The notes under the pieces were generated by a model. That model was not told the DNA's origin and did not search any database. It worked only from the letters and a program-made list of their open reading frames with translations. Below are positions 55,787-59,000 of a stretch of DNA of 64,000 bases, piece by piece. Where the stretch lies: positions 1,130,501-1,194,500 of the forward strand of contig NZ_CP030028.1 of assembly GCF_003586445.1 (NCBI RefSeq), written 5' to 3'. Each line of letters begins with the position of its first letter. Position 1 is the first letter of the stretch. Made by a program: the position numbers and the translations under genes. Source of the DNA: Bacillus sp. Y1. GTDB lineage: Bacteria > Bacillota > Bacilli > Bacillales > Cytobacillaceae.

Positions 55787-55833
55787 GTACACTTTTAAGG
55801 CAATGAAATAAATTTAACTAAAAGGTGATTGTT

Positions 55834-57345
55834 TTGCAGATTAATATACATGGATTAATGGAAGAGAAATTCCACCGCCCACTTACTAATATAGCTAACC
55901 TATTTTTTGAAGAAACGAAAGTATTCATGGAAAACCATTCGGACCAAGCAGAGTTAACAGTTAATTTTGATTTGCGAGTATCGGATTGGCTTCATGTCCA
56001 AGCTGAAATACCAGGTTCCGAACCACTACATGCAAATTATGAAAAAGCCCTCTCAGATGATCTTTCTCAAAAAGAAAAAGAGAGAATGATTAAACATGCG
56101 ATATCTTATGTATATTTATCTGTTCTACAAACTTATACAGGAATGACACAGAAATGGGGGATTTTAACAGGGATAAGACCAACGAAACTTCTCCACAAGA
56201 TGCTGCATGAAGGGATGCTGAAAGAGAAAGCGCACAAAAAGCTTCAAACGGAGTATATGATTTCTGATGAAAAGATTCAATTAATGCAGAACATCATTGA
56301 TCGTCAATTATCCGTTGTTCCGGACTTGTATCAACTGCAAAATGAAGTGAGCATTTATATTGGTATTCCGTTTTGCCCAACGAAATGTGCTTATTGCACG
56401 TTCCCTGCCTATGCTATTAATGGTAGACAAGGATCTGTGAATTCATTTTTAGGTGGCCTGCATTTTGAAATGAAAAAGATCGGACAATGGTTGAAAGAAA
56501 ATAACGTGAAAATCACCACTGTATATTATGGTGGCGGTACTCCTACAAGTATTACTGCTGAAGAAATGGACATGCTCTATGAAGAAATGTACGAGTCTTT
56601 TCCTGATGTGGCAAATATTCGTGAAGTAACGGTAGAAGCAGGTCGGCCTGATACCATCACACCTGAAAAGCTAGAAGTATTAAAAAAGTGGAATATTGAT
56701 CGAATAAGTATTAATCCACAATCATATATTCAAGAAACATTAAAAGCGATAGGCCGTCATCACACGGTAGAGGAAACGATTGAGAAATTTAAGCTTGCAC
56801 GAAAAATGGAAATGAATAATATTAATATGGACTTAATTATTGGTCTGCCTGGAGAAGGTGTGGAGGAGTTTTCTTATACTCTTCAAGAGACTGAGAAGCT
56901 TATGCCAGAATCGTTAACCGTTCATACCCTTTCCTTTAAACGTGCTTCCGAGATGACGAAAAATAAAGACAAATACAAGGTTGCGGAACGTAGTGAAATT
57001 GAAGAAATGATGGGGCTTGCCGAAAACTGGACGAAAGAACATAATTATGCCCCTTATTATTTGTATAGACAAAAGAATATTCTAGGAAATTTGGAGAATG
57101 TAGGATACGCGCTTCCTAATCAAGAGAGCATTTATAATATAATGATTATGGAAGAACAGCAGACAATCATTGGTTTAGGCTGTGGTGCTGCAAGTAAATT
57201 TATTGAGCCTTCAACGGGAAAGATTACGCAATTTTCAAATCCTAAGGACCCAAAGACATACAACGACTCATATGAGAAATATACAAATGATAAACTAGAA
57301 ATACTCACTAGCTTATTCTCAACCCCAAGCTCTTCTATAAAGTAA
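55834..57345 (+). CDS. hemZ: HemZ, radical-SAM coproporphyrinogen dehydrogenase-like protein
   Basis: A 503-residue radical SAM protein. The [4Fe-4S] motif is FCPTKCAYC (CxxxCxxC), with the GGGTPT segment, VEAGRPDT and the HemN-like C-terminal domain. The N-terminal 160 residues are specific to HemZ. The family acts on coproporphyrinogen III in anaerobic haem synthesis, although activity of HemZ itself is not firmly shown. I start at TTG 55834 because AAAGGTG lies at good spacing before it; a GTG within that site is less likely. No terminator is visible before the repeat array. Confidence 0.9.
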   Translation: MQINIHGLMEEKFHRPLTNIANLFFEETKVFMENHSDQAELTVNFDLRVSDWLHVQAEIPGSEPLHANYEKALSDDLSQKEKERMIKHAISYVYLSVLQTYTGMTQKWGILTGIRPTKLLHKMLHEGMLKEKAHKKLQTEYMISDEKIQLMQNIIDRQLSVVPDLYQLQNEVSIYIGIPFCPTKCAYCTFPAYAINGRQGSVNSFLGGLHFEMKKIGQWLKENNVKITTVYYGGGTPTSITAEEMDMLYEEMYESFPDVANIREVTVEAGRPDTITPEKLEVLKKWNIDRISINPQSYIQETLKAIGRHHTVEETIEKFKLARKMEMNNINMDLIIGLPGEGVEEFSYTLQETEKLMPESLTVHTLSFKRASEMTKNKDKYKVAERSEIEEMMGLAENWTKEHNYAPYYLYRQKNILGNLENVGYALPNQESIYNIMIMEEQQTIIGLGCGAASKFIEPSTGKITQFSNPKDPKTYNDSYEKYTNDKLEILTSLFSTPSSSIK

Positions 57346-57410
57346 GGAATGTACTTAATTTTAGAAGATAGTAAAAACAGTTTGGTTTGATTTGCTATGC
57401 CGGTTGACGG

Positions 57411-57448
57411 TTTCCGCGGGAGGGCCGAGCCCACTTTTCCCGCAGGAA
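57411..57448. repeat. GC-rich palindromic element before the tandem array
   Basis: CCGCGGGA and TCCCGCAGG flank GGGCCGAGCCCAC, forming a foldable element much richer in GC than its surroundings. Similar CCGCGGGA / TCCCGC palindromes are familiar to me as dispersed elements in Bacillaceae genomes. Confidence 0.5.
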
Positions 57449-57489
57449 TCCCTGTATTCGGATTACTAAGGCAATTTCTATCAAGTCCT

Positions 57490-58214
57490 GTCCGAATAAC
57501 CTCGGGATTCGGACTACCAAGTGTAAATTCCTTTGTGGCCTGTCCGAATAACCCTTGGATTTGGACAACCAAAGGCCAAATTCTATCAAGACGAGTCCGA
57601 ATAACCCTTGGATTTGGACAACCAAAGGCCAAATTCATCAAGACGAGTCCGAATAACCCTTGGATTTGAACAACCAAAGGCCAAATTCTATCAAGACGAG
57701 TCCGAATAACCCTTTGATTTGGACAACCAAAGGCCAAATTCATCAAGACGAGTCCGAATAACCCTTGGATTTGGACAACCAAAGGCCAAATTCTATCAAG
57801 ACGAGTCCGAATAACCCTTGGATTCGAACAACCAAAGGCCAAATTCATCAAGACGAGTCCGAATAACCCTTGGATTTGGACAACCAAAGGCCAAATTCTA
57901 TCAAGACGAGTCCGAATAACCCTTTGATTTGGACAACCAAAGGCCAAATTCATCAAGACGAGTCCGAATAACCCTTTGATTCGGACAACCAAAGGCCAAA
58001 TTCTATCAAGACGAGTCCGAATAACCCTTGGATTTGGACAACCAAAGGCCAAATTCATCAAGACGAGTCCGAATAACCCTTGGATTCGAACAACCAAAGG
58101 CCAAATTCATCAAGACGAGTCCGAATAACCCCTGTATTCGGACTATCAAGTGCAAATTCCTTCGTGTCGAGTCCAAATAACTCTGCAATCAGACAACCAA
58201 CAGGCAATCAACCT
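57490..58214. repeat. Tandem repeat array, 52/53-bp units in 105-bp dimers
   Basis: Fourteen units begin with GTCCGAATAAC or a close variant (57490, 57542, 57595, 57647, 57700, 57752, 57805, 57857, 57910, 57962, 58015, 58067, 58119, 58171). The central ten are nearly identical, and the first, last and second-to-last have diverged. Lengths alternate 53 and 52 bp because odd units have AATTCTATCAAG and even units AATTCATCAAG. Each unit holds an inverted repeat GTCCGAAT / ATTTGGAC or ATTCGGAC. The 1 kb between hemZ and the acetyltransferase gene contains no convincing gene. Confidence 0.92.
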
Positions 58215-58325
58215 TATGACAAGAAGGAAATATCAGCTATTTTTTTCTTAATTCGACTTGGTCCTTTTGTTGATGGAGAGAAACCTTAACCTGATTTTGA
58301 TTAGCAATAAGCACATATATTATCA

Positions 58326-58368
58326 AAAAATGGCGTGATAACTGAAAACTATTTACACGCCATTTTCT
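58326..58368 (-). terminator. Terminator of the acetyltransferase gene
   Basis: AAATGGCGTG / CACGCCATTT with a 17-nt loop and TTTTTT on the minus strand. Confidence 0.8.
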
Positions 58369-58388
58369 GTGTTATTTAACTGTTTAAT

Positions 58389-58880
58389 TTAGTTATCCGT
58401 GGCTTTTTTGTATGCTTTGTATATTTGTTCGATATTTAATGGTCGCAGCATTCGGTTTTCCGGTTGATCGATTGGGTGAAATCCGAATTTTTCATACAGG
58501 CTGTGTGCATCCCTGGTGGTTAAATGAAAGGCAGCGCCCTTTAGCTTTGGCTCACTAACAATCGTTTCGATTAACCATTTGCTTAATCCCTGACCACGAT
58601 ACTCTTTTATCACAAAAACATCTGCTAAATAAGCAAATCTAACAAAATCAGTTATTACCCGAGCAAAGCCAATTTGCTTGGCAGAAGAGTTTTCTTCTGG
58701 ATTACCATCAAACAGTCCAAAACATACATTAGAGTTCTCTATGGATTTTTCTACTAAATCGGGAGTCATTCCCTTTCCCCAATAGGATTCGTGACAGATA
58801 AATTGTTCAATTACATCAAGATTTAAAAGATCTTTGTTCGTTGTAATAAAAAATTGATTATAAGAGTAGGTTGATTTCAA
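58389..58880 (-). CDS. GNAT-family N-acetyltransferase
   Basis: A 163-residue acetyltransferase with the acetyl-CoA loop of motif A, VIKEYRGQGLSKWL (R/QxxGxG/A pattern), and the motif B segment HSLYEKFGFHP. I start at TTG 58880 behind AAAGGAG; a GTG three codons earlier overlaps the site. Substrate unknown. It converges on the tandem array. Confidence 0.82.
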   Translation of the reverse strand: MKSTYSYNQFFITTNKDLLNLDVIEQFICHESYWGKGMTPDLVEKSIENSNVCFGLFDGNPEENSSAKQIGFARVITDFVRFAYLADVFVIKEYRGQGLSKWLIETIVSEPKLKGAAFHLTTRDAHSLYEKFGFHPIDQPENRMLRPLNIEQIYKAYKKATDN

Positions 58881-59000
58881 GAAGAACACTCCTTTCCTTC
58901 TTAACTATACCGATTTTTAGAATAATTTAAAATAATTAGTTTTTTATCCAATGGAATACCGATATAATAATAGAAGAGAAGTCAGTGGGAGGGGAGAAGG

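Follow-up and report, generated by a model that had tools for sequence, protein, structure and literature searches.

A 52-nt satellite array behind hemZ in Bacillus sp. Y1, with a dyad of fixed geometry and a possible mobile carrier

Main finding

The tandem array between hemZ and a GNAT-like gene in Bacillus sp. Y1 is a member of the class of 52-nt satellites and one of 16 array sites known in the same genome, which is invisible from the sequence of the window alone (the window being the whole stretch of 64,000 nucleotides analyzed here, positions 1,130,501 to 1,194,500 of contig NZ_CP030028.1). The repeat class as such is already known; as far as checked, what is new is the shared dyad with its fixed geometry, the carrier element, and the difference in rates seen at orthologous sites. 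The working part of the unit would be a 25-bp dyad, GTCYRAAT-N9-ATTYRGAC, placed every 52 bp. The explanation preferred here is held, as a whole, only tentatively: the dyads would be phased sites for a dimeric DNA-binding protein, and the array would have arrived in a MITE-like element.

The array and its flanks

The upstream neighbor hemZ (55825..57345, plus strand; NCBIfam NF006061 and TIGR03994, both over the cut-off) points into the array. TRF described the array at 57542-58143, either with period 105 in 5.7 copies (96% matches) or with period 52 in 11.5 copies. The 14 units start at 57490, 57542, 57595, 57647, 57700, 57752, 57805, 57857, 57910, 57962, 58015, 58067, 58119, and 58171, and their steps (52, 53, 52, 53, 52, 53, 52, 53, 52, 53, 52, 52, and 52) alternate strictly up to 58015, followed by three of 52. 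The 14 units and alternating steps of the original prediction are borne out, while the length difference that it gave as two bases is one base (TTCTATC versus TTCATC). Mean unit identity was 0.90 at lag 2 and 0.80 at lag 1, which supports the proposed growth by 105-bp dimers for this array.

Each unit is built from a half-site of 8 bases, a gap of 9, the same half-site inverted, and a spacer 27 or 28 bases long. Thirteen full units, GTCCGAAT-N9-ATT(T/C)G(G/A)AC with a 27-28 nt spacer and steps of 52/53, occupy 57490..58170 on the plus strand according to TRF and unit comparison. They are preceded by a diverged part-unit (57447..57489, plus strand), recognized from its sequence and a self-match of 57447-57520, with the right half-site ATTCGGAT and a spacer. 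Between hemZ and the array, at the expected site of the lost left element end, lies a G+C-rich hairpin without a T run (57414..57446), formed by the palindrome CCGCGGGA..TCCCGCAGG; the fold of 57395-57475 had a z-score of -1.13.

On the right, the degenerate 14th unit (58171..58194, plus strand) opens a right-end module with related sequence in L009, L011, and L016. It is followed by the putative right subterminal module of the mobile element (58195..58324, plus strand), which partially matches the right flanks of the same three loci, and by the remnant of a right terminal inverted repeat (58325..58383, minus strand; nhmmer 36.6 bits, E 8.4e-10, model positions 18-68), which model R2 also found (G000:C1:1188825-1188884). 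The remnant includes a terminator-like hairpin at 58325-58367 (fold of 58310-58385, z -3.40). The 3' arm of the hemZ/GNAT terminator, which is whole in Robertmurraya korlensis (L021; hairpin z -5.37), was recognized by eye at 58392..58409. The convergent downstream neighbor (58389..58889, minus strand) encodes a GNAT-like acetyltransferase with weak NCBIfam matches, all below the cut-off.

Three statements of the original prediction concern the array ends, the flanks, and the minus-strand frame. Age, to which the divergence of the end units was ascribed, is an incomplete account. A shared module begins with the unit at the right end in the window, L009, L011, and, less clearly, L016; in all of these but L011 it continues into an element end. 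The absence of a terminator between hemZ and the array agrees with an empty consensus scan of 57200-58600, which allows loops of 3-8 only, and has to be read together with the terminator-like hairpin to the right of the array. The long minus-strand frame exists (57132-58097) and matches no NCBIfam family.

By HemZ, the closest named relatives are a MAG (L020, 94% identity) and R. korlensis (92%), from which the host genus is probably Robertmurraya-like. In R. korlensis, the hemZ-GNAT intergene is short, contains a strong terminator hairpin, and lacks an array, and the MAG carries an array at the same hemZ place with no detected ends. When 80 hemZ loci were scanned fuzzily, allowing up to 2 mismatches, units turned up in L020 alone. 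The sole match up to E 1 in an Rfam scan of 56800-58900 was STnc40, with 22.8 bits against a gathering score of 45, and a distant blastn against a plasmid collection gave no match.

Copies in the same genome

With at most one mismatch, the pattern GTCYRAAT-N9-ATTYRGAC occurs in 304 copies in the own genome, compared with 1 copy of the reversed pattern, which is beyond chance. A search with the unit gave 24 matches, and 12 array sites were compared in detail; their step is 52 (52/53 in the window), with one clear unit only in L019. The palindrome pattern pointed to four further arrays, giving at least 16 sites. The search of genome and relatives suggested by the original prediction has led to 16 known own array sites and to unit numbers that vary among the genomes of the genus.

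Among 13 arrays (12 own, one from L020), unit identity is 75-90% within arrays and 64% between them. Unit spacers are homogenized within arrays (mean identity 0.79), unlike the unique spacers of CRISPR arrays. The first 12 own arrays lie between convergent genes in eight cases and co-directional genes in four, with none between divergent genes; of the two later arrays that were viewed, judged by ORFs, L299 is co-directional and L297 divergent.

Geometry and conservation of the dyad

The gap between the palindrome arms was 9 bases in 536 of 547 cases, 8 in eight, and 10 in three, with none at 3-7 or 11-19. Steps between centers below 60 were 52 in 307 cases, 53 in 24, 51 in seven, and 48 in one. 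These counts stem from 205 of 294 records, de-duplicated by context, and most loci were retrieved by the unit model or the gap-9 pattern, which biases the gap and not the step. Among 48 loci tried with TRF, 46 had a period between 40 and 70, which was 52 in 45 of them and 53 in one; L019 and L144 had no such period, L144 showing a period of 156. The arm consensus, counted by eye, was exactly GTCCGAAT/ATTCGGAC in 30 of these 46 arrays. Three arrays reached via element ends and not via the unit (L191, L198, and L222) have period 52 with other unit sequences, and the array of L191 is located outside its end pair.

In nine orthologous array pairs, two of which share L013, identities were 83-93% in the flanks, 0.85-0.91 in the arms, 0.41-0.81 in the N9 gap, and 0.44-0.72 in the spacer. 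The window and the MAG L020 had 93%, 0.85, 0.81, and 0.44, respectively, the gap being undiverged in this pair. At orthologous sites, the spacer and mostly the gap have diverged and the arms have stayed. One site in five genomes of the genus (L013, L156, L159, L163, and L169) carries 14, 14, 1, 17, and 2 units, respectively, with left element ends in L159, L163, and L169.

C-to-T or G-to-A changes at two CpG steps (arm positions 4, 5, 21, and 22) made up 107 of the 188 arm changes tabulated, through either methylation-driven decay or tolerated degeneracy; one possible cause is that cytosines of the dyad are methylated. The T/C differences that had been predicted to preserve pairing are part of these transitions. 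In a covariation test of 177 units from 13 arrays (12 own, one from the MAG L020), 1303 of 1416 arm pairs were standard, and within-array shuffles had a mean of 1306.9 and were at least as high in 499 of 500 cases. Compensation between half-sites was likewise not seen, both halves being changed in 23 units versus 25.8 expected (P 0.17) and in 18 distinct cores versus 19.0 expected (P 0.40).

Between genomes, both arms were changed together to GTCCAAAT/ATTTGGAC in G022 and G025, and to GTCCGAAC/GTTCGGAC in an array of G052 and G053. L276 has arms GTCCGAAG/GTTCGGAC with an inner arm position unpaired in most units, and L286 (G571) has one unit, GTCAGAAT/ATTCTGAC, fully paired with new arms and three with GTCGGAAT/ATTCTGAC. 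The whole-array shifts of G022, G025, G052, and G053 fit a DNA dyad and a hairpin equally.

Distribution and genomic place

Matches of model R1 occurred in all five genus genomes and in 41 of 193 genomes of the family, from 11 of its 25 genera. The exact palindrome pattern was present in 57 of the 193 genomes and 14 of the 25 genera, the control giving 0 or 1 per genome, and 42 genomes had at least three exact palindromes. The distribution is patchy within genera, with 146 copies in G041 versus 0 in G042. Of 397 genomes sampled from the order, including 16 from the own family, 22 contained the exact pattern, among them Y1 itself (G000). Five genomes from three other families (G200, G263, G341, G365, and G390; f9, f30, and f20) had 69-186 copies, and smaller counts were obtained in G245 (10), G413 (9), and G521 (f36; 13, scattered), while several genomes had just 1-2 sites that look chance-like or diverged. 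Six places of this sample were viewed; five had steps of 51-53, and L300 was a single site. Isolated exact matches from other families (L274, L277, L278, L280, L281, L292, and some others) were dismissed, as they have a chance or coding look without an in-phase neighbor.

By simple ORF calls, 60 array occurrences comprised 27 convergent, 29 co-directional, and 4 divergent gene pairs, compared with 41, 109, and 48, respectively, among other gene pairs of the array loci. The excess of convergent over divergent placement had a sign-test p of 3.4e-5, with some occurrences dependent on one another (orthologous sites, and L123 and L173, which represent one locus). Apart from orthologous sites, no recurrent gene family was found beside arrays.

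A possible carrier element in terminator loops

Left flanks of several own arrays share modules, as do the right flanks of the window array, L009, L011, and L016. The reversed right end aligns with the left end, giving terminal inverted repeats of about 50 bp (end sequence GGGTTCCGTTTTCGGGTGCA), each followed by a terminator-like hairpin. One element end is present at 9 of the 16 own array sites, the right end in the window, L009, and L016, and the left end in L010, L011, L012, L017, L018, and L019. In L019 (2369-3773; own C1:538.4-539.8 kb), next to the one-unit array, a rve-type (IS3-like) insertion has broken the left end in two at its terminator hairpin. No element end was detected at the other seven sites (L013, L014, L015, and the four later arrays), and no array of the own genus had both. 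All seven own-genome matches of the left-end module coincide with arrays (the seventh is the piece severed by the insertion beside L019), and the interpretation of this module as an independent repeat was rejected on this basis.

Both ends surround the arrays of L170, L172, and L204-L207, all from G153, the one genome in which such two-ended arrays were found. None of 24 loci from other genomes (L123-L146) had an element end within 1.5 kb. The end model matched (E <= 1e-3) in 115 of 193 family genomes and 16 of 25 genera, often as facing pairs, and weak single matches may be false. Arrays and ends showed no significant co-occurrence over the 193 genomes (29 of 42 versus 86 of 151, Fisher p 0.21), so the element would be one vehicle for arrays and not a condition for them.

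After removal of one duplicate from 26 end-to-end elements delimited, 25 remained, from 8 genomes. A 9-bp direct repeat with at most 1 mismatch flanked 20 of them (mispaired-flank control: mean 0.28, maximum 2), rising to 24 with at most 2 mismatches (mean 2.65, maximum 5). With end and repeat removed, the flanks of 16 of the 25 pair at a duplex energy of -10 kcal/mol or below, in the manner of intrinsic-terminator arms, compared with a mispaired control mean of 5.5 and a maximum of 11 in 200. The 19 array-less elements had the repeat at <=1 mismatch in 18 cases and flank pairing at <= -10 in 13, while the six array-bearing two-ended elements had the repeat in two at <=1 mismatch and in all six at <=2, with three pairing at <=-10. 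The elements are located in the loops of terminators, with duplications of 9 bp, most clearly where they are array-less. Counting against the preferred explanation are the 4 of 60 arrays between divergent genes and likewise the own array L297.

In relatives, the elements have the features of MITEs, with terminal inverted repeats, a length under about 1 kb, and no transposase of their own, except that two are longer with nested insertions. In the window, the right-end remnant alone is present, the left end and any target repeat being lost. The two longest of the end pairs inspected among the matches listed contained a nested Mutator/IS256-type transposase (L204) and an IS110-type transposase (L224); no autonomous partner of the element was found in these two pairs, which contained nested insertions only, and other long pairs may exist. 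In L218, element ends flank a Glyoxalase-family gene, and in L191 an EamA transporter gene without a clear target repeat; both are possible passenger-gene cassettes. Array-less elements of g15 and g22 (L209-L217 and L219) contain a few TAAGCGGAG..TCCGNTTA palindromes, some spaced 51-52 by eye. By script, the spacing was 51 in L216 and L217, with no second palindrome in the others of L209-L217, and a 52-bp spacing in these g15 elements is only suggestive.

Weighing the explanations

With distances and half-sites kept and the intervening sequence free, the arrays have the look of a row of dimer sites, from which we infer a protein. A putative dimeric protein would bind each dyad, and neighboring dimers would line up along the array. 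Five turns of B-DNA correspond to about 52 bp, and the dyads would lie on one face of the DNA because of this step. Spacer and, mostly, gap sequence would drift while half-sites and distances are maintained. A MITE-like element may have brought the array into the hemZ/GNAT intergene, where its copy number then grew locally. The element family would insert in intrinsic terminator loops, duplicate 9 bp, and carry a terminator-like hairpin in each end; landing in such loops may be tolerated because the ends bring these hairpins. A protein-binding array, one of several options in the original prediction, is the option favored by the evidence. No binding protein for the dyad was found, and recombination-driven amplification could keep the geometry without binding.

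A function of transcribed units as RNA, folding into hairpins that stabilize, attenuate, or sponge in the manner of a small RNA or a terminator series, draws on a palindrome that is able to pair and on 52-nt repeats of B. coagulans reported as transcribed (PMC8161180; accessible part of PMC8625621). The hairpin predicted for every unit is present as a palindrome, but among the plus-strand folds of five window units (z -1.05, -0.47, +0.23, -2.41, and -2.70) it is the minimum-energy structure in just two, those with z near -2.4 and -2.7, other folds being better in three; two units on the minus strand adopted other structures (z -1.96 and -1.64). The nearly invariant 9-nt loop also argues against RNA, whereas a hairpin would tolerate more lengths, and the terminator-like hairpins in the element ends should shut read-in. 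Compensatory stem changes are absent within arrays; the RNA-hairpin reading was rejected for this reason, and the hairpins proposed for hemZ transcripts are unsupported. A role as RNA is judged improbable. A selfish or neutral satellite without host use, whose arms and step are kept only through recognition by a unit-expanding or unit-moving enzyme (recombinase, nuclease, or transposase), accords with the patchiness within genera, unit numbers that range from 1 to 17 at an orthologous site, a spacer turnover far faster than that of flanking genes, and the mobile carrier in G153. No such enzyme was found, however: the array genomes G050, G065, and G169 are without Y1 transposase, an HTH_7 search of the own genome revealed no small resolvase, and the same dyad across families of the order would need repeated transfer of both partners. 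We consider this satellite reading unlikely, though worth keeping in view.

Two specific enzymes can be weighed in the same way. Palindromes of REP/BIME type spread by a RAYT (Y1) transposase would likewise be extragenic and mostly 3' of genes, and the own genome has one Y1_Tnp gene; Y1_Tnp is present in 165 of 193 family genomes. The own gene is flanked by a different palindrome, with no 52-bp unit found within 12 kb, and arrays occur in G050, G065, and G169 without Y1_Tnp; on both counts the RAYT reading was rejected as scarcely credible. This single Y1 (IS200-like/RAYT) transposase (L100:1285-1869; own C1:4756892) lies between palindromes that resemble REPs (GGTGTCTGTCACC by eye) and have no relation to the 52-bp units. 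Tn3-type res sites have the half-site TGTCYGATAAT, which resembles TGTCYRAAT, with a dyad near 27 bp and a step near 53 bp. Tandem res-like sites for a Tn3-type serine resolvase would match the outer TGTC...GACA of many units and this dyad length and step (consensus and spacing from general knowledge). An HTH_7 search, the sole domain search made for it, returned two proteins of the own genome, judged by eye to be a transposase resembling that of IS21 and a regulator of LacI type. No resolvase was among them, which makes a serine resolvase very unlikely.

Relation to known repeat systems

The 52-nt tandem repeats (satellites) of Bacillus were reportedly treated by Subirana and Messeguer in J Bacteriol in 2020. 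Their 2021 study describes 52-nt satellites of constant size and unconserved sequence with species-specific signals, for which a protein polymerizing on DNA or a small RNA was proposed (PMC8161180). Shared with these satellites are the constant step of 51-53 nt, the non-coding location, several families per genome, a patchy occurrence over species, and short signals often accompanied by their reverse in one repeat. The window array has repeats of 51-53 nt in at least 4 copies, lies between hemZ and the GNAT gene with a minus-strand frame without NCBIfam family, has sister arrays differing in unit sequence (16 sites; identity 0.64 between and 0.75-0.90 within), and contains GTCYRAAT and its reverse ATTYRGAC in the same repeat. 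Unlike the published satellites, the arrays here have one 8-9-8 dyad common to 14 genera of one family and to other families, and part of them is tied to a mobile element, while "transpos" and "terminator" have 0 occurrences in the main text of PMC8161180. Its Table 1 lists a family of B. oceanisediminis with nearly the same arms, GTCCGAAG/CTTCGGAC. Among 25 consensi from 27 rows of that table, 9-12 had at least 6 of 7 dyad pairs at each odd length from 21 to 29, compared with 0.35-0.6 after shuffling, and one family can count at several lengths. The arm sequences of the published families differ between species (PMC8161180), which counts against the preferred explanation.

A minisatellite within a MITE has a precedent in BrickBuilt of Porphyromonas gingivalis. 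In the accessible part of its description, it has inverted-repeat ends, an intergenic location, and a conserved leader and tail around the array, as here, but a 23-nt unit, 12-nt ends, and Porphyromonas as its host; the terminator is undisrupted in the one near-terminator case described there (PMC4596501).

REP/BIME arrays with RAYT transposases are extragenic palindromes, often between convergent genes (general knowledge and the accessible part of the MITE review PMC10969869). The arrays share this placement and differ from REP/BIME in their fixed 52-bp step, in the different palindrome at the RAYT gene, and in their presence in genomes that have no Y1 protein at all. Neither the terminator-loop element nor the shared dyad was found described in the literature searched, which leaves most subscription papers outside it.

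Implications

The dyads may be the DNA half of an undescribed nucleoprotein system that spreads horizontally in Bacillales, a suggestion that is possible, yet on balance rather doubtful. A dimeric protein drifting by lineage would drag the half-sites with it, and arrays could travel in terminator-loop elements that bring their own terminators. The arms would then change together between some genomes because the specificity of the protein drifts by lineage, with the spacer and most of the gap free to vary, and insertion would be nearly harmless because the element lands in terminator loops and brings terminators of its own.

The findings bear on the published puzzle of the 52-nt satellites, a constant size without sequence conservation or known function. 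Terminator-loop elements offer a testable origin for part of the arrays, and the variation from 1 to 17 units at a site shared by five species forms a natural copy-number experiment. The shared dyad is a bait, with which one short DNA could pull out the protein.
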